A stretch of 64,000 bases of DNA from Actinomycetospora termitidis (GCF_030286555.1 NZ_JASVWF010000001.1:1364001-1428000); one strand, 5' to 3'. Shown: positions 43,269-62,480, counted from the stretch's first letter. The notes: a model not told the origin generated them from the sequence alone. Translations and numbers: made by a program.

Positions 43269-44975
43269 CTACCGCTTGATGCGGAAGATGCCCCAGGCGA
43301 GCTGGCCGGACCGCCCACCGTTGACCCAGTTGCGCAGGCCGGTCTTCATGTTGGAGATGTACTCCTCGGAGATCTTCCCGGCGAACGCCTTCTCCGCCTT
43401 CTCGAGCTCCTGCAGCACCCGGCCGTAGTGGGTCGTGAGCTGGTCGGTGTGGTCGTCGAAGACGTAGTCGTTGAACCCGTTCTTCGCGAACTCCGCCTTG
43501 TAGAACCCGGGCGAGCCGAGGGTGTCCAGGTGCAGTCGCGCGAGGATCGGCGTGAGGGCGGAGACGTCCGCGCCGTCGGCCGCCATCGGGTCGGTGAACA
43601 CGATCTGGCCGGTCGGCACCAGGACGCGGGCGATCTCCGCGACGACCGTCGAGCGCTCGCCGGAGTGCAGGAAGGCGTCCTGCGACCAGACGAGGTCGTA
43701 GGCGTTGTCCTGGATCGGCATGTTCTCGAACGACCCGTCGACGACGTCGACGAGGTGGTCGAGGCCCTGCTCGCGGGTCTTCTCCCGGTTCCGCTCGTTC
43801 TCGACCTCGGAGAGGTTCAGGCACGTCACGCGGCAGCCGTACTTCTTCGCCAGGTGCCGGGCCGCTCCGCCGTAGCCGGCGCCCATGTCGAGGATGCGGG
43901 TGTCGGCGGTGATGCCGGCGGTCTCGGCCATCCGCTCGACGGTGCGCGCGGAGGCCGGGGCGATCGCCTCGTCCGGGGTCGCGTAGAGCCCGACGTGGAT
44001 GTCCTCACCGCCCCACACCTCGTGGTAGAAGGTGTCGGCGTCCTCCGAGTTGTAGTAGTCGCGGGCGGTGTGGACCGCCGTCGAGTACGACTCGGTGAGC
44101 TCCTCGTCGGTGCGGTAGGTCTTCTCGGCCACGTGGATCCAGAAGTCGGGGGTGTCCTCGCCGTAGGTGTCCTGGAAGTCGCCGTAGGTGTCGATCTTCT
44201 GGAAACCGACCTCGCGCATGAGGCGCCGCACGTAGTCCTTGCGCAGCGGGAACATGTTCAGGTGGTACACGGACCCGTCGTCGTGGAACGTGTACCGGAA
44301 GCGCGCGAGGCCGTCGTCGAGGTACTCGGGCTCGGCGGTGACGGTGTCACCGCTGTAGTAGTACTTGTGCTTCGACGAGAAACCGTCGTCGAGGATCGAG
44401 TCGTAGTTGCGCTGGTCGAGGATCAGCACGCCGTCGTGCGACAGCATCGCGTAGAACTCGGCCAGGGCCTTGCGCCGGTCGCGCTCGGAGAACAGGTGCG
44501 TGAACGAGTTCCCGAGGCAGATGATGGCGTCGTACTCGCCGTGCACGTCGCGGTTGAGCCAGCGCCAGTCGGCCTGGACGACCCGCAGCACGTGCCCGCG
44601 CTCGCGGCCGTTGTGGAACGCCCGCGCGAGCATCTCGGCGCTGCCGTCGGCGGAGACGGTCTCGAAGCCCGCCTCCAGCAGCTGCACCGAGTTGAAGCCG
44701 GTCCCGGTGGCCACGTCGAGGACCTTCTCGACGCCCCGCGCACGGAGCTGGTCGATGAAGAACGATCCCTCGCTGGCGGCCCGTCCCTCCCAGCCGATGT
44801 AGTCGTCCCACTTGTCGACGAATCCCTTGATGTATTCGTCCTGGTAGTGGTTCGTGTCGCGCACCTCGTTCGGGTTCTCGCCGAACTCCTGGTGCACTTC
44901 CTCGGGGGAGTACGCGGCCTCGGTGTCGTCGAGGCCAGCCGCGGTGTCGGGGCTCCGGTCTGCGGCTGTCGTCAT
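43269..44975 (-). CDS. fused glycine/sarcosine and sarcosine/dimethylglycine N-methyltransferase (betaine synthesis)
   Basis: This 568-residue protein has two complete SAM-methyltransferase domains. The first resembles glycine/sarcosine N-methyltransferase, with motif I LDVATGTGFNS at 86-96, IICLGNSFTHLF, LDQRNYDSILD and KYYYSGDTV. The second resembles sarcosine/dimethylglycine N-methyltransferase, with ILDMGAGYGGAARHLA at about 361-376, VWSQDAFLHS and ISEEYISNMKTGL. Together they would convert glycine stepwise to glycine betaine, an osmoprotectant. A fused enzyme of this kind is known from the halophilic actinomycete Actinopolyspora. The ATG follows GGAGG. The gene stands alone between the AbiEi unit and the lipoprotein operon. 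Confidence 0.93.
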   Translation of the reverse strand: MTTAADRSPDTAAGLDDTEAAYSPEEVHQEFGENPNEVRDTNHYQDEYIKGFVDKWDDYIGWEGRAASEGSFFIDQLRARGVEKVLDVATGTGFNSVQLLEAGFETVSADGSAEMLARAFHNGRERGHVLRVVQADWRWLNRDVHGEYDAIICLGNSFTHLFSERDRRKALAEFYAMLSHDGVLILDQRNYDSILDDGFSSKHKYYYSGDTVTAEPEYLDDGLARFRYTFHDDGSVYHLNMFPLRKDYVRRLMREVGFQKIDTYGDFQDTYGEDTPDFWIHVAEKTYRTDEELTESYSTAVHTARDYYNSEDADTFYHEVWGGEDIHVGLYATPDEAIAPASARTVERMAETAGITADTRILDMGAGYGGAARHLAKKYGCRVTCLNLSEVENERNREKTREQGLDHLVDVVDGSFENMPIQDNAYDLVWSQDAFLHSGERSTVVAEIARVLVPTGQIVFTDPMAADGADVSALTPILARLHLDTLGSPGFYKAEFAKNGFNDYVFDDHTDQLTTHYGRVLQELEKAEKAFAGKISEEYISNMKTGLRNWVNGGRSGQLAWGIFRIKR

Positions 44976-45158: not shown

Positions 45159-45214
45159 AGGTTGCCGAACTGTGAAGAGATGCCGGTCACTGGCCATGCG
45201 GCGCGGAACGTGCT

Positions 45215-46423
45215 TCACGCCGTCGGGTCGACGATGACCTTCCGGTTCGTGGCCGCCGGCCCGGGCAGCTGCCGGCCGCCCGGCCCCACGTCGTTGACGT
45301 AGCCGGGGAACTGGCTCCCCACGCCCTTCGTCGTGATCCGGTCCGCCGCGGCCCCCAGTGAGACCAGCAGTCCCTTGACCGCCTCGGCCCGCCGCGTGGA
45401 CAGGTCCACCTGCGAGGCGGGGCTCCCGGCGCGGGCGGTGGTGCCGGTCAGCGCGAGGCGGTGCGTCGGGCCCTGCTTGACGAAGTCCGCGAACGGCCCC
45501 AGCACCCCCCGCGCGGCGTTCTCGTCGCGGAACTCCGCGGTGTCCGGCCGGAAGCCGACCGAGCCGTCGTCGGGCAGGGCCGTGGACCGACCCGGCGTGA
45601 TGGTCGGCGGCGGCGGCAGGGCCACGGTCGAGACCGGCGGGACGTCCGACGGGGCGTCCCCCGACCGGGGCTCGTCGACGACCGCGACGCACGATGCGCC
45701 ACCGGCCTCCGCGATGCCCCTCCACAGCGCGACCAGGGACGCGCGCTGCGAGGTGTCCAGCGGGCCCTGGGGCTCCGCGACGTCCCCGATCCCGGCCAGG
45801 ACCACGGTCGCGCCGTTCAGGGACGGCAGGGCGTTCGCGTCGCGCAGCGAGCTCACGACGTCCTGGACGGGCGCCGCGAGCAGGCCCTCGGTACGGAAGT
45901 CCAGCGGGGCGACCGTGGAGAGCCCGGAGTCGACCAGCACCACCGTGCCCGGCCGCGACCCCTGCACCGACCGGCCCGCGAGCGTGAGCGCGCCGAGCGT
46001 GTCGGCCTCCGGGGTCTGCGCCCGCAGCTGCGAGATCGCGTCACCCAGCCCGGACAGGAACGCGTTCTGGTCGTCCTGCGCGGCGATCGCGTTCCCCGCG
46101 TCGGTGCGGTAGGTGTCGCTGCCCGCCACCGTGGGCCGGCCGTCCACGCTCACGACGGTGAACTTCGGCTGTACCTTCTGGTCGGCGGCGCCGGAGACGA
46201 CCGTGATCGCCGCCTGCTGGACCGCGCCGGGCAGCCCCGGCTCCGGCTCGTTGGCCCGCCCGCCGACCGCGATCGCCATCGGGCCGACGGGGACCGGGCA
46301 CGACAGCGGCGCGCCGCCGCCCCCACCGGACGCGAAGCCGCCGGAGGAGTCGTCACCCGAGGAGCACGCTCCCAGCACCAGCACCGCCGCAGTGGCCAGG
46401 GCGAGTGCGAGGCGACGGCTCAA
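45215..46423 (-). CDS. lipoprotein with C-terminal OmpA-like domain
   Basis: This 402-residue protein begins SRRLALALATAAVLVLGACSSG: a lipoprotein signal with lipobox LGAC, so it should be lipid-anchored outside the membrane. The middle part (about 40-260) looks like a vWA-related or otherwise Rossmann-like fold (GTVVLVDSGLSTVAPLDF, ATVVLAGIGDV), not firmly identified. The C-terminus (about 285-400) has the OmpA peptidoglycan-binding pattern: VGFRPDTAEF, LALTGTTARAGS, DLSTRRAEAVKGLLVSLGA and ITTKGVGSQFPG. The TTG at 46423 overlaps the upstream stop (TTGA) and follows GGAGAG. Last gene of a coupled four-gene operon. Confidence 0.83.
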   Translation of the reverse strand: MSRRLALALATAAVLVLGACSSGDDSSGGFASGGGGGAPLSCPVPVGPMAIAVGGRANEPEPGLPGAVQQAAITVVSGAADQKVQPKFTVVSVDGRPTVAGSDTYRTDAGNAIAAQDDQNAFLSGLGDAISQLRAQTPEADTLGALTLAGRSVQGSRPGTVVLVDSGLSTVAPLDFRTEGLLAAPVQDVVSSLRDANALPSLNGATVVLAGIGDVAEPQGPLDTSQRASLVALWRGIAEAGGASCVAVVDEPRSGDAPSDVPPVSTVALPPPPTITPGRSTALPDDGSVGFRPDTAEFRDENAARGVLGPFADFVKQGPTHRLALTGTTARAGSPASQVDLSTRRAEAVKGLLVSLGAAADRITTKGVGSQFPGYVNDVGPGGRQLPGPAATNRKVIVDPTA

Positions 46424-47430
46424 GAGTGCTCTCCGTTCGTGGTCGGGGCCCGGTGGTGCCCGTTGCGGTGCCCGTTCACGACGGCGGGTGCGGGCGCCCG
46501 GTGCGCGGGCGGATCGTTCCGCACCGGCGGGCGCGCCTCGCGGCCGGGCTCGATCGCGCGGGCCGGGGTGAACAGCGGGTACGGCGCGGAGTTGGTGAGC
46601 CCGTCGGTGACCGAGGGGTTCTGCATCTTCGAGGCCATCAGGTTGCGGGCGTAGTTCTGCAGCTCCAGCATCTCGGCGGCCACCTGCTGGCGGGCCGCGA
46701 CCCACCGCTGCTCCTCGCGGTCGCGCTCGTTCTGCTGCTGGCGCAGCGCCTCCCGCGAGCGCTCCAGCTCGGCCCGGCTCGCCCGCTCCGCGGCGGTGGC
46801 CTCCTCGAGGCGCCGCTCGGCCCGGCGCAGCGCCCCAGCGACCGGGTTGAACGACACGAACGTCGCCACCATCGCCGCCACGCCGCTCGCGAGGAACAGC
46901 GCGCCGAAGAGCATCGCGGGCAGCACCGCCGAGGAGTCCAGCGCGGCCGACGACCCGGAGCCGAACCCGCCGCCGGAGCCCGAGCCGAACCCGGAGCCGC
47001 CGCCCGAGCCGAATCCGGATCCCGACGACGAGCCGAACGGGTTCGACGAGGTCGACGACGGCGTCAGCAGCCGGGTGACGAACGAGGCCACACCCAGCAC
47101 GAGCCACGTCAGGAAGGCCGCGACCGTGAGGAGGACCGAGGCGCGCGGGTCGCCGCAGCGCCGGCGGGCCAGACCTTGGCCGACGAGGTGCGCGAGCCCG
47201 ACCGAGGCGGCCGCGAACCCGACCGTGCCGATGACGATCAGGAACGTCGAACCGCGGAAGACCCGGGCGAGGACCACGTAGAACGCGGCGATGTCGCCGC
47301 CGATCGCGAGGACGATGATGCCGAGCGCGAGGTAGTCCTCCCGCGAGCGGTTCACCAGCATCGTCGAGTCGCGGTAGGAGCCGACCGTGCCGGGCCGGGG
47401 GCCGCGGCGCAGGGAGAGGCGCGGGGTCAT
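46420..47430 (-). CDS. membrane protein with Gly/Ser-rich loop and coiled coil
   Basis: This 336-residue protein was not recognised. Three or four membrane segments lie near 35-55, 62-82, 100-118 and 165-185. The last two are separated by a striking loop of GSGFGSGGGSGFGSGSG type (about 125-155). After the membrane part comes a charged helix likely to form a coiled coil (RRAERRLEEATAAERASRAELERSREALRQQ), then a disordered Pro/His/Asn tail. The ATG overlaps the upstream stop by four bases, and the stop overlaps the lipoprotein start, so it is translationally tied to both. Confidence 0.72.
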   Translation of the reverse strand: MTPRLSLRRGPRPGTVGSYRDSTMLVNRSREDYLALGIIVLAIGGDIAAFYVVLARVFRGSTFLIVIGTVGFAAASVGLAHLVGQGLARRRCGDPRASVLLTVAAFLTWLVLGVASFVTRLLTPSSTSSNPFGSSSGSGFGSGGGSGFGSGSGGGFGSGSSAALDSSAVLPAMLFGALFLASGVAAMVATFVSFNPVAGALRRAERRLEEATAAERASRAELERSREALRQQQNERDREEQRWVAARQQVAAEMLELQNYARNLMASKMQNPSVTDGLTNSAPYPLFTPARAIEPGREARPPVRNDPPAHRAPAPAVVNGHRNGHHRAPTTNGEHS

Positions 47431-48137
47431 CGGGTCTCCTGCTCGGTGGCTGCGTCCTCGACGGCGGGCCCGGTTCGCACCCGCAACGGGCTGGTCAGGG
47501 GCTCGTCGTCGGGGATGTCGGGGCGTCGGACGGTCAGCGCCTGCCGCGCCGCCCGGGGGCCGCGGGACGCACTGCGCCGGGGGTCGTCGGCGACGGTCTC
47601 GTCGTCCTCGGCCACGCCGGGGCGCACCGCGGGGCTGCGCGGGGTCTCCATCAGCCGGTCGCGGGCGTCGGCGTAGTCGCGGCGGGCGATCTCGAGGGCC
47701 CGTCGGTCGCGCTCGTGGTTGGCCTCGGCGTCGGCGAGCTGCTGGCGGGCGCCGCCGACGAGCCGGTCGATGACGGCGTGGTGGTCGGCGTGCTCGGAGT
47801 CGATGCGGGCCAGCCACCCCGACGCCCAGGAGGCGATCAGCGGGTCGAGCGCCGCGCCGGTGCCCTCGTCGACGGCGTTCGGGAGCAGGTCGTTGACCAG
47901 GCTGCGCACCCGCCCGCGGGCCGCGGCGACGTCCGGCGAGGCCTGGTTCGGGTAGGGCATCGGGCCGACCCGGTCCTCGGCGTAGACCTGGGAGAACCGC
48001 TTCTCCTCGGGGGTGCCGGGCCTGCGCAGACCCGGGCGCGGTGGGGTGTCGGTGGTGGTGCCGCCCGCCCGGTGCGTCGGAGTCCGGCCCGGTGCCTCCG
48101 GGTCGTCGGAGCGCCGACGGCGCGGGAACGGGAACAT
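47427..48137 (-). CDS. hypothetical soluble helical protein
   Basis: This 236-residue protein is not a known family. A disordered basic N-terminus (FPFPRRRRSDDP) is followed by a helical core at about 45-165 (EEKRFSQVYAEDRVGPM, RGRVRSLVNDLLPNAVDEG, LARIDSEHADHHAVIDRLVGGARQQL). It continues into a likely coiled coil, ANHERDRRALEIARRDYADARDRL, and then a disordered acidic tail. No signal peptide or membrane segment. The ATG follows GAGGAG and shares one base with the upstream stop (TGATG). Its place between a coiled-coil cytoplasmic protein and a membrane coiled-coil protein suggests a complex. Confidence 0.68.
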   Translation of the reverse strand: MFPFPRRRRSDDPEAPGRTPTHRAGGTTTDTPPRPGLRRPGTPEEKRFSQVYAEDRVGPMPYPNQASPDVAAARGRVRSLVNDLLPNAVDEGTGAALDPLIASWASGWLARIDSEHADHHAVIDRLVGGARQQLADAEANHERDRRALEIARRDYADARDRLMETPRSPAVRPGVAEDDETVADDPRRSASRGPRAARQALTVRRPDIPDDEPLTSPLRVRTGPAVEDAATEQETR

Positions 48138-49081
48138 CACGACTCCTCGACGGGACGGTCGACCGGGCCGGCGGAGAGCTGGCCCTCCTCGGCGGTGAAC
48201 ACCCAGCCCGGGATCCGGGGGTGCCGGGCGACGAGCCACGGACCGATCCGGTCGCCCTGCGGGTGGTGGCGCACCAGGTGGCTCTCGTAGGCCGAGATGC
48301 GGCGCATGGCGAGCGCGTGCAGCCGGCGCACGCGCGTCGCGCCGACCACCTCCCGGGCGCGGATCGCGGCCCGCACCCGCGCGAGCTCCTCGCGGGCGGC
48401 CGCGCCGGTGCGCTCCAGCCGGGTGATCTCGTCGACCATCGGCCGGCGCAGCGCCTCGTACTCCCGGGCGCGGCGGGCGCGGACGACGTCGTCGGCGGTC
48501 AGGGTCTCCCCGCCCCGGCGCAGGCCGAGCTGGTCGGAGTCCAGCAGCACCGGCCAGGACGCGACCCGGCCCTCGGCGCGCTCACGGGCGGCGTCGGTCT
48601 CGTCGATGCGGACGACCAGGGTGGCCACGGTCTCGAGCAGCGGGGCGAGCTCGACGTCGAGACGCAGGCGCTCGCGGTGGCTGCGGGCGAGGAAGTCCTG
48701 CGCGAGCTCCTCGAGGGTCGGGGTGCCGGACTCCGCGCTGGGCAGGCCGGCCCGGCCGTCCGCGCGGGCGCGTCGCCGGTCGGCCAGGCGGTTCGCGAGC
48801 GTGTACGGCGGCATCGAGCCCGTCGAGGCGTCGGCGGGCCGGATGCGGGGTGACGACGGGGCCGGGGGCGGCCCCGCGGTCGGAACGGCCGGGGGTGCCG
48901 GACGGGGGGCGGGGGCACCGATGACGGGCGTCCCGGCCGCCGGGGTGCCGGGCTCCGGTCCGCGGACGCGCCGGGTCGCCGGGGGCTCGGCGTGCCGGGG
49001 GAAGGGAGCGGACGGCACACCGGTGGCGGTGTCGCCGCGACCGGGGTGGCCGGTGCGACCCCCGTCGTCCGACCGGGACAT
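48137..49081 (-). CDS. hypothetical protein, Pro-rich N-terminus and coiled coil
   Basis: This 314-residue protein is not a known family. Residues 1-90 are disordered and Pro/Gly-rich (PAPRPAPPAVPTAGPPPAP). The remainder is helical: TLEELAQDFLARSHRERLRLDVELAPLLETV, then ARRAREYEALRRPMVDEITRLERTGAAAREELARVRAAIRAREVVGATRVRRLHALA broken by short gaps. It ends with VARHPRIPGWVFT and an acidic tail. The ATG at 49081 follows GGAGG. First gene of the four-gene run; a candidate promoter lies ~110 bp upstream. Confidence 0.68.
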   Translation of the reverse strand: MSRSDDGGRTGHPGRGDTATGVPSAPFPRHAEPPATRRVRGPEPGTPAAGTPVIGAPAPRPAPPAVPTAGPPPAPSSPRIRPADASTGSMPPYTLANRLADRRRARADGRAGLPSAESGTPTLEELAQDFLARSHRERLRLDVELAPLLETVATLVVRIDETDAARERAEGRVASWPVLLDSDQLGLRRGGETLTADDVVRARRAREYEALRRPMVDEITRLERTGAAAREELARVRAAIRAREVVGATRVRRLHALAMRRISAYESHLVRHHPQGDRIGPWLVARHPRIPGWVFTAEEGQLSAGPVDRPVEES

Positions 49082-49434
49082 GGGACCTCCTGCTCGCGGT
49101 CCGCCGGTGCCTGGCCGGGGCCGTTGCCTCCGCGACGCCCCCTCGCGCCGCCCGCGCGAGGGCCCGCCACCGGACCCTCGGACGGGAGTGTAGGTGGCCC
49201 CCGTGCGGGGGTGACCCGCGCGGGCCCCTCCGGCCCTGCCGGACCGGACGGGCCGCCCCTCCGGGACACGGCGGCGACACGCCGACGATCGGGTCACTCG
49301 ACGGCGTGAAAGTCGCGTCGCGGTGACGCGGCTCGATGCGGTGGCACGCACGCTCCGACCTGCAACTTCTCCCACCGCTACGCCATTCGGCCGCGAAGCG
49401 AAGGGGTTAACTGTTGCTCTGAACGGTCGATTCT
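49082..49434. promoter_or_regulatory. 353-bp divergent region between the lipoprotein operon and the second glycan block
   Basis: On the minus strand TACACT (plus 49187-49192) is a good -10, with GTCACC at 17 bp as a partial -35. The spacer between them contains a perfect hairpin CCCCC-GTGC-GGGGG (49198-49211). Near the right end TTAACT and ATTCTA at 17 bp (49407-49434) lie immediately before the GT2 start and could drive the second glycan block. No gene is supported in this stretch. Confidence 0.35.
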
Positions 49435-58263: not shown

Positions 58264-59583
58264 GTGACGACCCTCCTGCGCCTGCTCCCCGTCGCGATCG
58301 TCGTCGCGCTGCTCGTGTCGGCCGCGCTGCCGACCGGTCGCGCGCAGGCCGCCGCCGGCCCGGCCTGGGGCCTGGTCGCCTCCACCTGCACCGCGTCCTC
58401 GCTCGCGGCGAACCGTGCCGTCGGCATCACCGTGGTCGAGGTCGAGGCCTACTGGGACCGCTACATGCCCGCCCGGGCCGGCGCGGTGGACACCGCCTAC
58501 GTCGCCGACCTGCGGGCCCGGATCACCCGCTGTCTCGACGCCGGCCTGCGCGTCGTCCTCGGCCCCGGGATGCAGTACCCGCCGGCCTGGGTGCGGTCGC
58601 TGCCCGGGGCGGCGCTGGTCGACCAGCGCGGCAAGCGCCCCACGAACGGCGCGATCGACACCGTCTTCTCCGCCGCCGTGCGGGCCGCCCAGGCCGACTA
58701 CCTGAAGCGCCTCGTGACCGACCTCCCGGCGAAGCGCATCGAGGCGGTCCGGGTGGGCACCAGCACCGAGGGCGAGATCGGCTACCCGGGGCCGAACGAG
58801 GCGGGCGACGGGTTCCTCCAGAGCTGGTGGGCCTTCTCGCCCGCCGCCCAGCAGGGCACCGGGCTCGCGGCCGGGACGGCCCGCTCGCCGATGCCGGGCT
58901 GGATCCCCGGGCAGAAGGCATGGCAGGGGAAGGCGGTGACCGCGGCCGCCGCCCGGTCCTGGTTCCTCTGGTACTCCCGCGCGCTCACGTCCGCGGTCAA
59001 GGGCCAGCACGACGCCCTGCGCGCCGCCGGGTTCACCGGCCAGGTCCACCTGCCATCGCCCGGCAAGGGGGTGCTGCCCGCCGACCTGACGACGGCGGCG
59101 AACGCGCTGCTGAACGGGACCGGCGACCGCGACGGCTCGCTCGGGCGCGGCCTGAACTACACCGACCAGTTCGCGGTGCTGGCGGGCAGCACGTCGAAGA
59201 TGGTGATCGACCTCAGCGGGGTGGACGACGCGTCCGCCGTGCTCGCCCGCCGGCAGTCGCCCGCCCAGGACGCCTGCCGGTCCTCCGACCCGTCGACCAG
59301 CGTCGCGGCCGGGACCCCCGTGCACCTCTGGTCGAACCTGCGCTTCGCCCGCGCCCAGGCGACCCGGGCCGGCCTGCCCGCGATCGGGGAGAACCCCGGG
59401 CCGCCCGCGGCGCAGACCGGCGGCACGTCGTACTCGGACTCCCTCGCCGAGCAGGTCCGCCGCGCACCCGGCTACGCCCGCAGCTGCGGCCTGTCGGCCC
59501 TGCTGGTGGCGTTCGAGTGGGCGCTCGACGACCCGGGCTCCGGGGTCACCCGCGACGACTACCGCCGCGCGGTCCTCGGCTGA
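58264..59583 (+). CDS. secreted glycosidase-like protein, paralogue 1
   Basis: This 439-residue protein is one of three tandem paralogues. A Sec signal peptide (LLPVAIVVALLVSAALPTGRAQA) ends near residue 31. The mature protein reads like a TIM-barrel glycoside hydrolase. VVEVEAYWDRYMP and LDAGLRVVLGPGMQYPPAWV lie in early strands, VRVGTSTEGEIGYPGPNE carries a candidate acid/base glutamate, and AIGENPGPPAAQTGG carries a candidate nucleophile. Assignment to a numbered GH family was not possible. It is likely to act outside the cell on the locus's own polysaccharide (trimming or release), which is inference. The start is a GTG. Confidence 0.78.
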   Translation: MTTLLRLLPVAIVVALLVSAALPTGRAQAAAGPAWGLVASTCTASSLAANRAVGITVVEVEAYWDRYMPARAGAVDTAYVADLRARITRCLDAGLRVVLGPGMQYPPAWVRSLPGAALVDQRGKRPTNGAIDTVFSAAVRAAQADYLKRLVTDLPAKRIEAVRVGTSTEGEIGYPGPNEAGDGFLQSWWAFSPAAQQGTGLAAGTARSPMPGWIPGQKAWQGKAVTAAAARSWFLWYSRALTSAVKGQHDALRAAGFTGQVHLPSPGKGVLPADLTTAANALLNGTGDRDGSLGRGLNYTDQFAVLAGSTSKMVIDLSGVDDASAVLARRQSPAQDACRSSDPSTSVAAGTPVHLWSNLRFARAQATRAGLPAIGENPGPPAAQTGGTSYSDSLAEQVRRAPGYARSCGLSALLVAFEWALDDPGSGVTRDDYRRAVLG

Positions 59584-59650
59584 GCCACGATCGGGCGGTT
59601 CCCGGCGTCCGTCCCGACGACGGGTGCGGCCGGTCGGCCAGGCTGCCCCG

Positions 59651-60979
59651 GTGAGGTCCGCACGACGGCGACGCGCACCGGCCCGCTCGCTGGCCGTCCT
59701 GCTCGCCCTGGTCGCGTCGTGCGGCGCCGCGCCGACCGCGCCGACCGCACCGGCCCCGCGCGCCGACCCGGCCTGGGGCGTCGTCGACTCGACGTGCGCC
59801 CCCGAGCGCCTCGCCGCCCGCGTCCCCGGGGTCGACGTCGCCGTGGTCGAGGCGCACTGGGACCGGCTGGAGCCGCAGCCCGGCGTGACGGATCCGGGCT
59901 ACGCCGAGGGGCTGCGCGCCACCGTCACCCGCTGCGTCGACGCGGGGGTCCGGGTGGTCCTCGGCAGCGGGCTGCAGTACCCGCCGGGCTGGGTCCGCGC
60001 GCTGCCGGGCGCGGAGATCCGGGACCAGGCCGGCCGCACCCCGACCACCGGCGCCGTCGACACCGTCTTCTCGGCCGCGGTCGCCGCGGCGGCGGACGAC
60101 CACCTGCGGCGGCTGGTCGCCGCCGTCCCGCTCGACGGCCTCGTCGGGATCCGCGTGGGCACCTCCACGGCGGGCGAGCTCGGCCACCCCGGCCCGGAGG
60201 CGTCGGGTGCGGCGTTCGACAGCTGGTGGGCCTTCGGCGACGCCCCGCAGCACGGCGTCGGCCTGGCGCCGGGCCAGGTGTCCTCCCCGATGCCGGACTG
60301 GGTCCCCGGGCAGCGCACCTGGCAGGGCCGCGCCGTGACGCCGGACGACGCCCGCGGCTGGTTCACCTGGTACTCCGGCGCGCTGGTCCGCGCCGTCGCC
60401 GACCGGGCCCGGTCCCTGCGGGAGGCCGGGTACCGGGGGCCGGTGCACGTCCCCGCCGCCGGGCGCGGGGTCCTGCCCGCCGACCTCGACGCCGCGGTCG
60501 GCGTCGTGCTCGACACCGCGGTGCGCGACGGCGCCCTGCGCCGCGGGCTGGACTACGTCGGCGACCTGCCCGCGCTCGCCGCGGCCGTGCCGGGCGCCGT
60601 CGTCGACGTCACCGGGCTCGACGACGCCACCGCGGTCCGCGCCCGCCGCCTCGACCCGCCGCAGGACCGCTGCGCCCCCGGCGACGCCGAGGCCCTCGTC
60701 GCCGGCGCACCGTCCCTCGACGACTGGCCCAACCAGCGCGTGACCGTCGCCGCGGCGGCCCGGGCCGGGCTGCCGACCGTCGGGGAGAACCCGGGCCCGC
60801 CGGGGCCGACGACGGGCGGGGTCGCGGACTCCGACAGCGAGGCGGACCAGGTCCGGTACGGCGTCGAGTACGCCCGCGTCTGCGGCCTCTCGGCCTTCCT
60901 CCTGGCGTTCGAGGACGACCTGTACACCGGCCGCAGCGGGATCACCCCGGACGACTACCTCACCGCGATCCGTCGCTGA
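59651..60979 (+). CDS. secreted glycosidase-like protein, paralogue 2 (divergent)
   Basis: This 442-residue protein is homologous to its neighbours across its length. Its signal segment SLAVLLALVASCGAAPT contains a possible lipobox (VASC), so it may be a lipoprotein unlike the other two. It keeps VVEAHWDRLEPQPG, CVDAGVRVVLGSGLQYPPGWV, IRVGTSTAGELGHPGPE and TVGENPGPPGPTTGG. GTSTEGEIG of paralogue 1 is GTSTAGELG here: the first Glu is lost, the second is kept. This is the most divergent copy. The GTG at 59651 is chosen over one at 59624 without strong support from a ribosome-binding site. Confidence 0.77.
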   Translation: MRSARRRRAPARSLAVLLALVASCGAAPTAPTAPAPRADPAWGVVDSTCAPERLAARVPGVDVAVVEAHWDRLEPQPGVTDPGYAEGLRATVTRCVDAGVRVVLGSGLQYPPGWVRALPGAEIRDQAGRTPTTGAVDTVFSAAVAAAADDHLRRLVAAVPLDGLVGIRVGTSTAGELGHPGPEASGAAFDSWWAFGDAPQHGVGLAPGQVSSPMPDWVPGQRTWQGRAVTPDDARGWFTWYSGALVRAVADRARSLREAGYRGPVHVPAAGRGVLPADLDAAVGVVLDTAVRDGALRRGLDYVGDLPALAAAVPGAVVDVTGLDDATAVRARRLDPPQDRCAPGDAEALVAGAPSLDDWPNQRVTVAAAARAGLPTVGENPGPPGPTTGGVADSDSEADQVRYGVEYARVCGLSAFLLAFEDDLYTGRSGITPDDYLTAIRR

Positions 60980-61097
60980 CCCTGCCCGTCATCGTTCGGC
61001 CGAGTGGAGCTGCGCACGTTGAGCCGGCCGCGTGGATTCGCTGGGCCGACCGATCGTCAACCTCGTCGCGCTGTGCGATCCGGGCCCGGACGACGCG

Positions 61098-62480
61098 ATG
61101 GCAGAGAGCGTGTCCCTCCTCGCGTATCACCCGTCCCTCCCGCCCCGGTCGTCCCTCCGGTCCCGCGCGGCCGTGGCCACCGTGCTCGCCCTCGTCGCCG
61201 CCCTCCTGCTCGGCCAGCGACCGCCGACCGCCCACGCGGCGTCCGACCCCGCCTGGGGCGTGCTGGCCTCCGGCTGCACGACCTCCGACATCGCCGCGAA
61301 CCGCGCCGTGGGCATCGGGCTCGTCGAGGTCGAGGCGTACTGGGACCGCTGGCTGCCGACCTCGGCCGGCGTCGAGAACACCGACTACGTCGCCGACCTG
61401 TCCGCCCGGGTCACCGCCTGCCTCGACGCCGGCCTGCGCGTCGTGCTCGGGACCGGCACGCAGTACCCGCCGTCGTGGGTCCGCGGGCTCCCCGGCGCGA
61501 CGCTGGTCGACCAGCGCGGCGACAGCGCGGACACAGGCGCGATCGACACCGTCTTCTCCGCCGCGGTGCGCAGCGCCCAGGACGACTACCTGCGGCGCAT
61601 CGTCGCGGCGCTGCCCGTCGCGCGGCTCGACGGCATCCGCGTCGGCACCAGCGCCGCGGGCGAGATCGGCTTCCCGGGGCCGAACGAGTCCGGCACGGGC
61701 TTCCTGCAGAGCTTCTGGGCCTTTGGCGCCGACGCGCAGCAGGGGACCGGGCTGGCCGCCGGGATGCCGCGTACCCCGATGCCGGGCTGGGTCCCCGGCA
61801 CGCGGACCTGGAACGGCACGACGGTCACGCCGGCCGCCGCCCGGAACTGGTTCCTCTGGTACGAGCGCTCGCTGATGTACGCGGTCAAGGGCCAGGCCGA
61901 CACCCTGCGCACCGCGGGCTACACCGGCGCCGTGCACGTCCCCGCGCCCGGCAAGGGTGTGCTCCCGGCCGACCTCACCGCGGCCACGAACGCCCTCCTG
62001 AACGGCACCGGCGATCGCGACGGCTCCCTCGGCCGCGGGCTGTACTACGTCGACCAGTTCCCGGTGCTGGCCGGCAACGTCGCGAGCACCGTCGTCGTCG
62101 ACCTGACCGGGGTCGACGACGCCACCGCCGTCACCGCCCGCGCGCTGACCCCCGCGCAGGACACGTGTCAGGCGAACGACGCCACCACGAGCATTCAGAG
62201 CTCGACGCCGGTCGCGAGCTGGTCGAACCTCCGCTTCGCGCGCGCCCAGGCTGCCCGCGCCGGGCTCGCGGCCGTCGGGGAGAACCCGGGGCCGCCCGCC
62301 GCGCAGACCGGCGGCACCTCGAACTCGGACTCCGAGGCCGAGCAGATCCGCCGCAGCCCCGCCTACGCCCGCGGGTGCGCGCTGGCCGCGTTCTTCCTGG
62401 CGTTCGAGGACGTGCTCGACGACCCGTCGTCGGGATCGGACCGGCAGGACTACGTCGACGCCGTGACCGGGACGAGCTGA
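61098..62480 (+). CDS. secreted glycosidase-like protein, paralogue 3
   Basis: This 460-residue protein is closest to paralogue 1. From the ATG at 61098 a signal peptide follows (SRAAVATVLALVAALLLGQRPPTAHA). A longer frame from GTG 61032 would add 22 residues with no signal character, so the ATG is preferred. Motifs: VEVEAYWDRWLP, CLDAGLRVVLGTGTQYPPSWV, IRVGTSAAGEIGFPGPNE, VDLTGVDDATAVTAR, AVGENPGPPAAQTGG. As in paralogue 2, only the second Glu of the EGE element remains. Gaps of 67 and 118 bp between the three copies suggest one duplication unit, possibly one transcript. Confidence 0.8.
   Translation: MAESVSLLAYHPSLPPRSSLRSRAAVATVLALVAALLLGQRPPTAHAASDPAWGVLASGCTTSDIAANRAVGIGLVEVEAYWDRWLPTSAGVENTDYVADLSARVTACLDAGLRVVLGTGTQYPPSWVRGLPGATLVDQRGDSADTGAIDTVFSAAVRSAQDDYLRRIVAALPVARLDGIRVGTSAAGEIGFPGPNESGTGFLQSFWAFGADAQQGTGLAAGMPRTPMPGWVPGTRTWNGTTVTPAAARNWFLWYERSLMYAVKGQADTLRTAGYTGAVHVPAPGKGVLPADLTAATNALLNGTGDRDGSLGRGLYYVDQFPVLAGNVASTVVVDLTGVDDATAVTARALTPAQDTCQANDATTSIQSSTPVASWSNLRFARAQAARAGLAAVGENPGPPAAQTGGTSNSDSEAEQIRRSPAYARGCALAAFFLAFEDVLDDPSSGSDRQDYVDAVTGTS

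Follow-up and report, generated by a model that had tools for sequence, protein, structure and literature searches.

Four overlapping genes and their flanks

In the window, by which we mean the whole 64,000-nucleotide stretch of the Actinomycetospora termitidis genome that was analyzed, four genes lie in series on the minus strand. We term them g1 to g4. The gene g1 (48137..49081, minus) encodes a protein of 314 aa and its ATG is preceded by AGGAGG. It is followed by g2 (47427..48137, minus), of 236 aa if read from an ATG or 237 aa if the GTG at 48140 is used, by g3 (46420..47430, minus), which encodes a 336-aa membrane protein, and by g4 (45215..46423, minus), which begins with TTG and encodes a 402-aa lipoprotein. 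Read directly from the sequence, the overlap of g1 with g2 is 1 base for the ATG start or 4 bases for the GTG start, and the next two overlaps are 4 bases each, ATGA between g2 and g3 and TTGA between g3 and g4; the close coupling of the four genes described in a first, sequence-only reading of this region is thus borne out. A scan for promoters and terminators found nothing. Across g1, g2, g3 and g4, dN/dS against four congeners ranged from 0.08 to 0.37, and this purifying selection on all four argues that they are real genes.

No Pfam family was matched by g1, g2 or g3, and comparisons of these three proteins with NCBIfam, PADLOC and PHROGs returned only sub-threshold noise. Similarly, no PADLOC 2.0 model was matched by any of the four proteins, the lone g3 match having an E value of 0.078. 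The sequence-only reading had placed the first three proteins in no family that it recognized, and the Pfam, NCBIfam and PADLOC searches agree, with no match above threshold.

Directly downstream of the quartet, at 43269-44975 (minus), lies a fused glycine/sarcosine and sarcosine/dimethylglycine N-methyltransferase of glycine betaine synthesis. This fusion is found in the same place in all Actinomycetospora loci examined, and it remains where the quartet is absent. The other flank is variable, and consists of a glycosyltransferase/flippase cluster in the window or of a P-type ATPase and a VKOR gene in about half of Actinomycetospora. The quartet is divergent from the glycosyltransferase/flippase genes in the window and might on this basis be regarded as an accessory of the neighboring polysaccharide cluster. 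However, the replacement of that flank in about half of the genus largely refutes such a link and indicates that the quartet is independent of polysaccharide synthesis; in addition, one Actinomycetospora genome (G009) retains the polysaccharide genes without the quartet. We regard an accessory role of this kind as highly improbable. The polysaccharide cluster ends with a run of three genes (58264-62480, plus) whose products look secreted, and at least the last two of these proteins share a related stretch.

Predicted structure of the four proteins

No hydrophobic segment was detected in either g1 or g2, in agreement with their earlier description as cytoplasmic. The g1 protein has a Pro/Gly-rich tail (about residues 1-90) followed by a conserved core, and g2 consists of a long helix with disordered tails. 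Both are found in natural fusions. In Geodermatophilaceae, Kutzneria, Lentzea aerocolonigenes, Saccharothrix and Solihabitans, g2 is fused to the N-terminus of g3, which strongly supports the view that g2 and g3 act as one piece. In Saccharothrix, Pfam matches place the g1 domain at the N-terminus of a protein with FHA, ABC_tran and ABC2_membrane domains, and the same g1-FHA-ABC exporter fusion was identified by homology in Kutzneria, Lentzea, Solihabitans and Actinomadura.

The fold of g3 was read from a model of the Saccharothrix g2-g3 fusion (pLDDT 83), with whose family the window g3 aligns end to end. The model has membrane helices at residues 148-174, 180-209, 217-240 and 262-290, and long helices at 56-123 and 293-366; g3 is therefore predicted to have four transmembrane (TM) helices and a long C-terminal helix in the cytoplasm. 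The membrane segments and the Gly/Ser-rich loop noticed by the sequence-only reading were both recovered. The loop lies between TM3 and TM4 at about residues 124-168 (46927..47061, minus) and is taken to be external, since the N-terminus and tail are basic and the loop has no basic residue. Six residues, Asp46, Gly84, Trp109, Gly113, Arg120 and Gly183, are invariant in the 26 rows of alignment A4, and His81 is kept in 25 of them. Asp46, whose codon is at 47293..47295 (minus), falls in the middle of TM1; it is absent from the second g3-like protein of a large CHAT/kinase cluster (see below). An orphan second g3, 52% identical and lying within atypical sequence, was found without g1, g2 or g4 in Actinomycetospora G011 (L045 9633-10844, minus).

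The lipobox of g4, L-G-A-C20, was read directly from the sequence at the end of the signal peptide (46364..46423, minus), and no other hydrophobic segment is present. Two domains appear to follow. The C-terminal one, residues 286-402 (45218..45568, minus), is a divergent OmpA-like domain that matches Pfam OmpA PF00691 with 42.9 bits (cut-off 27.2). Its best sequence match in the PDB is Rv0899 (E 1.8e-7), and in a model of g4 (pLDDT 89) it has the OmpA-like fold, Foldseek comparisons to the PDB identifying OmpA, Pal and PA0833, with PA0833 the best (E 4e-10). The N-terminal domain, residues 42-262 (45638..46300, minus), lies within the high-confidence region of the same model and has the strand order of a vWA domain (b-a-b-b-a-a-b-a-b-a-b). 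In a viral Foldseek library it matched vWA (VWFA) proteins over about 215 columns, with E values from 8e-5 and low TM-scores. No match to vWA (PF00092) was found by sequence in Pfam or by profile search of the PDB, nor by hhalign, the last being a weak test in which some vWA reference sequences were in the wrong frame. The MIDAS motif DxSxS is missing from strand 1 in the aligned rows, and a motif on the fourth strand, DSGL(S/Q)T (DSGLST in g4), does not vary over the 35 rows of alignment A6. From the strand order and the weak Foldseek scores, we suggest that residues 42-262 form a degenerate vWA-like domain. The earlier description of g4 was correct as to the OmpA-like domain and incomplete as to the rest, having missed the vWA-like domain that makes up most of the protein.

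The OmpA-like domain had also been described as peptidoglycan-binding, and the whole complex as reaching the wall. DAP binding by OmpA-like domains takes place through the motif TD(x)7NxxLSxxRA (PMC5104382), and the corresponding binding residues in A. baumannii are D271 and R286 (PMC6572160). In g4 the motif reads TA(x)7QxxLSxxRA, with Ala330 at the Asp position, Gln338 at the Asn position and Arg345 kept. Among 77 related sequences the Asp position is occupied by Ala in 66, Ser in 8 and Asp in 1; the Asn is present in 4/77 and the Arg in 77/77. Tp0624 of Treponema carries the same change of motif and failed to bind DAP (PMC5104382). Because the binding Asp is replaced, canonical peptidoglycan binding by g4 is not to be assumed. 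The lipoprotein with an OmpA-like domain stands, the label "peptidoglycan-binding" is doubtful, and anchoring of the complex to the wall is unsupported, with Ala or Ser at the critical position in 74/77 sequences and a parallel in Tp0624. With an Ala naturally present in the DAP site, g4 also offers a direct test of whether "OmpA family" lipoproteins are anchored to the wall, as is assumed.

These features bear on two other views of the quartet. One sees it as no more than a structural link that holds membrane and wall together, in keeping with the lipoprotein nature of g4, its fold and its lack of a catalytic motif. However, the DAP site is degenerate, and a tether leaves the cytosolic g1 and g2 and the g1-exporter fusion unexplained; we consider it quite unlikely. 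The other, less probable still, is an ion-driven envelope motor in the style of MotAB, TolQR-Pal or Zorya, in which g3 would form the channel and g4 would anchor it to the wall. The long cytoplasmic helix of g3, its OmpA-domain partner, the invariant Asp in mid TM1, the near-invariant His in TM2 and the Arg at TM3 would all suit a motor. Conversely, g3 has no MotA_ExbB match in Pfam and no MotA, ExbB or ZorA fold match (ExbB appears only at E 0.69), g4 has no TM helix bearing an ion-binding Asp, and its DAP-binding Asp is lost. For the g2-g3 fusion model as a whole, no fold in the PDB was matched at E < 0.01. Membership of the Zorya, MotAB or TolQR families was rejected, given the missing Pfam and fold matches of g3 and a g4 with only a signal peptide and lipobox.

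Inheritance and partner genes

In 297 Pseudonocardiaceae genomes, g1 was found in 39, g3 in 42 (counted with alignment A2) and g4 in 76, as nested sets: genomes with g1 fall within those with g3, and these within those with g4. Outside the genus, co-occurrence of g1 and g3 has a Fisher p of 1e-31, which is no true probability since the genomes are related. The distance from g3 to g4 is 0-665 bp in all 23 non-Actinomycetospora genomes that have g1, g3 and g4. Three genomes have g3 without g1, and in one of these (G004) the contig ends inside the quartet. Within Actinomycetospora, g3 is present in 17/18 genomes, with the quartet at one fixed site; in the remaining genome, G009, the block corresponding to 45191..49387 is absent as a unit, all four genes being gone from an empty site with both flanks intact. 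About 34 Pseudonocardiaceae genomes carry divergent g4 relatives without g1-g3, suggesting that g4 belongs to a wider family. Divergent lone g4 relatives (loci L115-L126) have other conserved neighbors. Relatives in which these genes never occur together would have refuted the sequence-only reading; for g1-g3 the comparisons did not show this, and g4 has the wider, divergent family just mentioned.

These comparisons strongly support the view that g1-g4 are one inherited unit. Taken with the g2-g3 fusions, the empty site and conservation in other orders and a second class, the near-perfect co-occurrence and adjacency also lend good support to that part of the sequence-only reading which proposed a single membrane-spanning complex, its reach to the wall excepted. 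Very probably, then, the four genes build one undescribed complex whose parts reach from the cytoplasm across the membrane to a lipoprotein on the outer side.

Beyond Pseudonocardiaceae, the quartet was seen in Streptacidiphilus, Micromonospora, Virgisporangium, Actinomadura and Geodermatophilaceae, and in relatives it stands alone or beside genes for Ser/Thr kinases or for FHA, CHAT, AAA+ or radical-SAM proteins. In Slackia the order is g4-g1-g2-g3, directly preceded by two Ser/Thr kinase genes, and two Bacillota MAG loci carry g4 with weak g2/g3 matches or unassigned neighbors of the same size. The Nocardia plasmid pPE-7 bears the whole quartet. On Nocardia and Rhodococcus plasmids (L178-L180), g4 relatives were also observed near TPR and CHAT genes, those of Rhodococcus with scattered g1- and g3-like genes.

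A larger cluster comprises CHAT, a 258-aa protein, g1-g4, a Ser/Thr kinase, a 406-aa protein, a ClpB-type AAA+ protein, FHA, a second g3-like protein and an NrdG-like radical SAM protein. No description of this conserved cluster of about 12 genes was found. It is bordered by two mutually related proteins (hhalign 96%), to which no function was assigned (L095-L105, L049). In the g4 tree it forms one clade with support of 100/100, and two changes are required for the FHA-ABC form; the two forms lie nested among stand-alone quartets. In Actinomycetospora, no kinase, FHA or exporter gene is encoded adjacent to the quartet. In the genome of A. termitidis itself, plain ABC ATPases are the only relatives of the FHA-ABC proteins, and FHA-ABC exporters are present elsewhere in the genomes of most congeners; the 406-aa partner was not found in the genus by a single-sequence query, which is a weak search. 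The kinases, phosphopeptide-binding proteins or exporter that adjoin the quartets of relatives give the system the look of an unknown signaling or stress device of the membrane.

A CARF-HEPN gene (PADLOC E 1.5e-63) precedes the quartet of Pseudonocardia oroxyli, and a gene read by eye as Cas2-like adjoins the quartet; this locus is perhaps a CRISPR-linked variant of the module. Here a CARF-HEPN gene, a 330-aa gene, the quartet and a 94-aa gene were seen in one run (L046 7230-14068). Such neighbors raise the question of a role in conflict or in defense against phages, in which the quartet would supply the envelope component of an immunity system in multicellular actinobacteria. The CHAT, kinase and FHA genes found with relatives' quartets, the plasmid copies and a patchy occurrence outside a few genera would fit this role. 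However, a fixed site in 17/18 Actinomycetospora genomes is unlike a defense island, PADLOC recognizes none of the four proteins and g4 occurs in no phage record; we judge an anti-phage role unlikely, if the least so of the alternatives weighed here. A phage origin was rejected, since g4 has no phage match and its PHROGs match is limited to the OmpA part.

A possible sensing module and its known counterparts

Our preferred reading, to which we give nearly an even chance, is that g1-g4 form one transmembrane scaffold or sensor complex; that its role is in signaling is possible and slightly less assured. Outside the membrane, g4 would face the external loops of g3, and what it senses or clamps there would be a protein, a glycan or a non-canonical wall ligand, and not DAP peptidoglycan of the classical kind. 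This state would be relayed across the membrane by g3 to the helical stalk that it extends into the cytoplasm, and a docking face would be formed there by g2 and g1. Where kinase, FHA, CHAT or AAA+ genes or a g1-FHA-ABC fusion accompany the quartet, output would then go through partners of the Ser/Thr phosphorylation type or through an exporter. In Actinomycetospora, where the quartet is a stand-alone, near-core gene set, output would pass through partners elsewhere in the genome.

More tentatively, the quartet may be an unnamed, old trans-membrane sensing module that has been plugged into different outputs in at least one, perhaps two phyla, and so represent a new class of signaling or immunity device. 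Its parts would be an extracytoplasmic vWA-like/OmpA-like reader, a four-helix membrane transmitter and a cytoplasmic docking pair, and its forms stand-alone, exporter-coupled (g1-FHA-ABC), kinase/CHAT/AAA+/radical-SAM-coupled and CRISPR-associated. Three families with no named relative, found together from Actinomycetes to Coriobacteriia and weakly in Bacillota, point to a conserved envelope machine whose proteins are at present annotated only as "hypothetical protein" and "OmpA family protein". With its changing partners (kinase, FHA, CHAT, AAA+, radical SAM, exporter, CARF-HEPN), it would serve several actinobacterial stress or immunity systems as a shared input component.

No description of the quartet was found in the open-access full-text literature searched, subscription papers lying outside that search. 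None of the families or systems compared fits the quartet. Membrane complexes with an OmpA-fold lipoprotein are already known; g1-g3 and the way they are combined are not. The OmpA-like domain of g4 shares its fold and Arg345 with the C-terminal domains (PF00691) of Rv0899/ArfA, PA0833 and Pal, but differs from them in Ala330, Gln338 and the vWA-like domain in front. In its binding site g4 resembles Treponema pallidum Tp0624 (PMC5104382), which likewise has Asp changed to Ala, Asn to Gln/Glu, the Arg kept and extra domains in front, although these N-terminal domains are of other kinds and no quartet has been described in this spirochete. Zorya ZorAB, MotAB and TolQR-Pal resemble g3 and g4 in pairing a long-helix membrane protein with an OmpA-domain protein. 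This is a comparison of working only, as no sequence or fold relation to g3 was detected and g4 is a lipoprotein with no TM ion site.

Kaur et al. (2020) described vWA conflict systems with OmpA effectors, built on MoxR (PMC7159879). Like the module and its partners, with their putative vWA-like domain, these vWA-MoxR/iSTAND systems combine domains of the vWA and OmpA types with Ser/Thr kinases, FHA and radical SAM, and occur in multicellular bacteria. However, no MoxR, VMAP or iSTAND component was found in the quartet neighborhoods scanned, and the vWA-like domain of g4 is extracytoplasmic and lacks a MIDAS. Finally, the Rv1747-PknF system couples an FHA-ABC exporter to a kinase (PMC3908365). 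The window quartet has no such partner, but the quartets of some relatives are accompanied by just these components, an FHA-ABC2 exporter or a Ser/Thr kinase.
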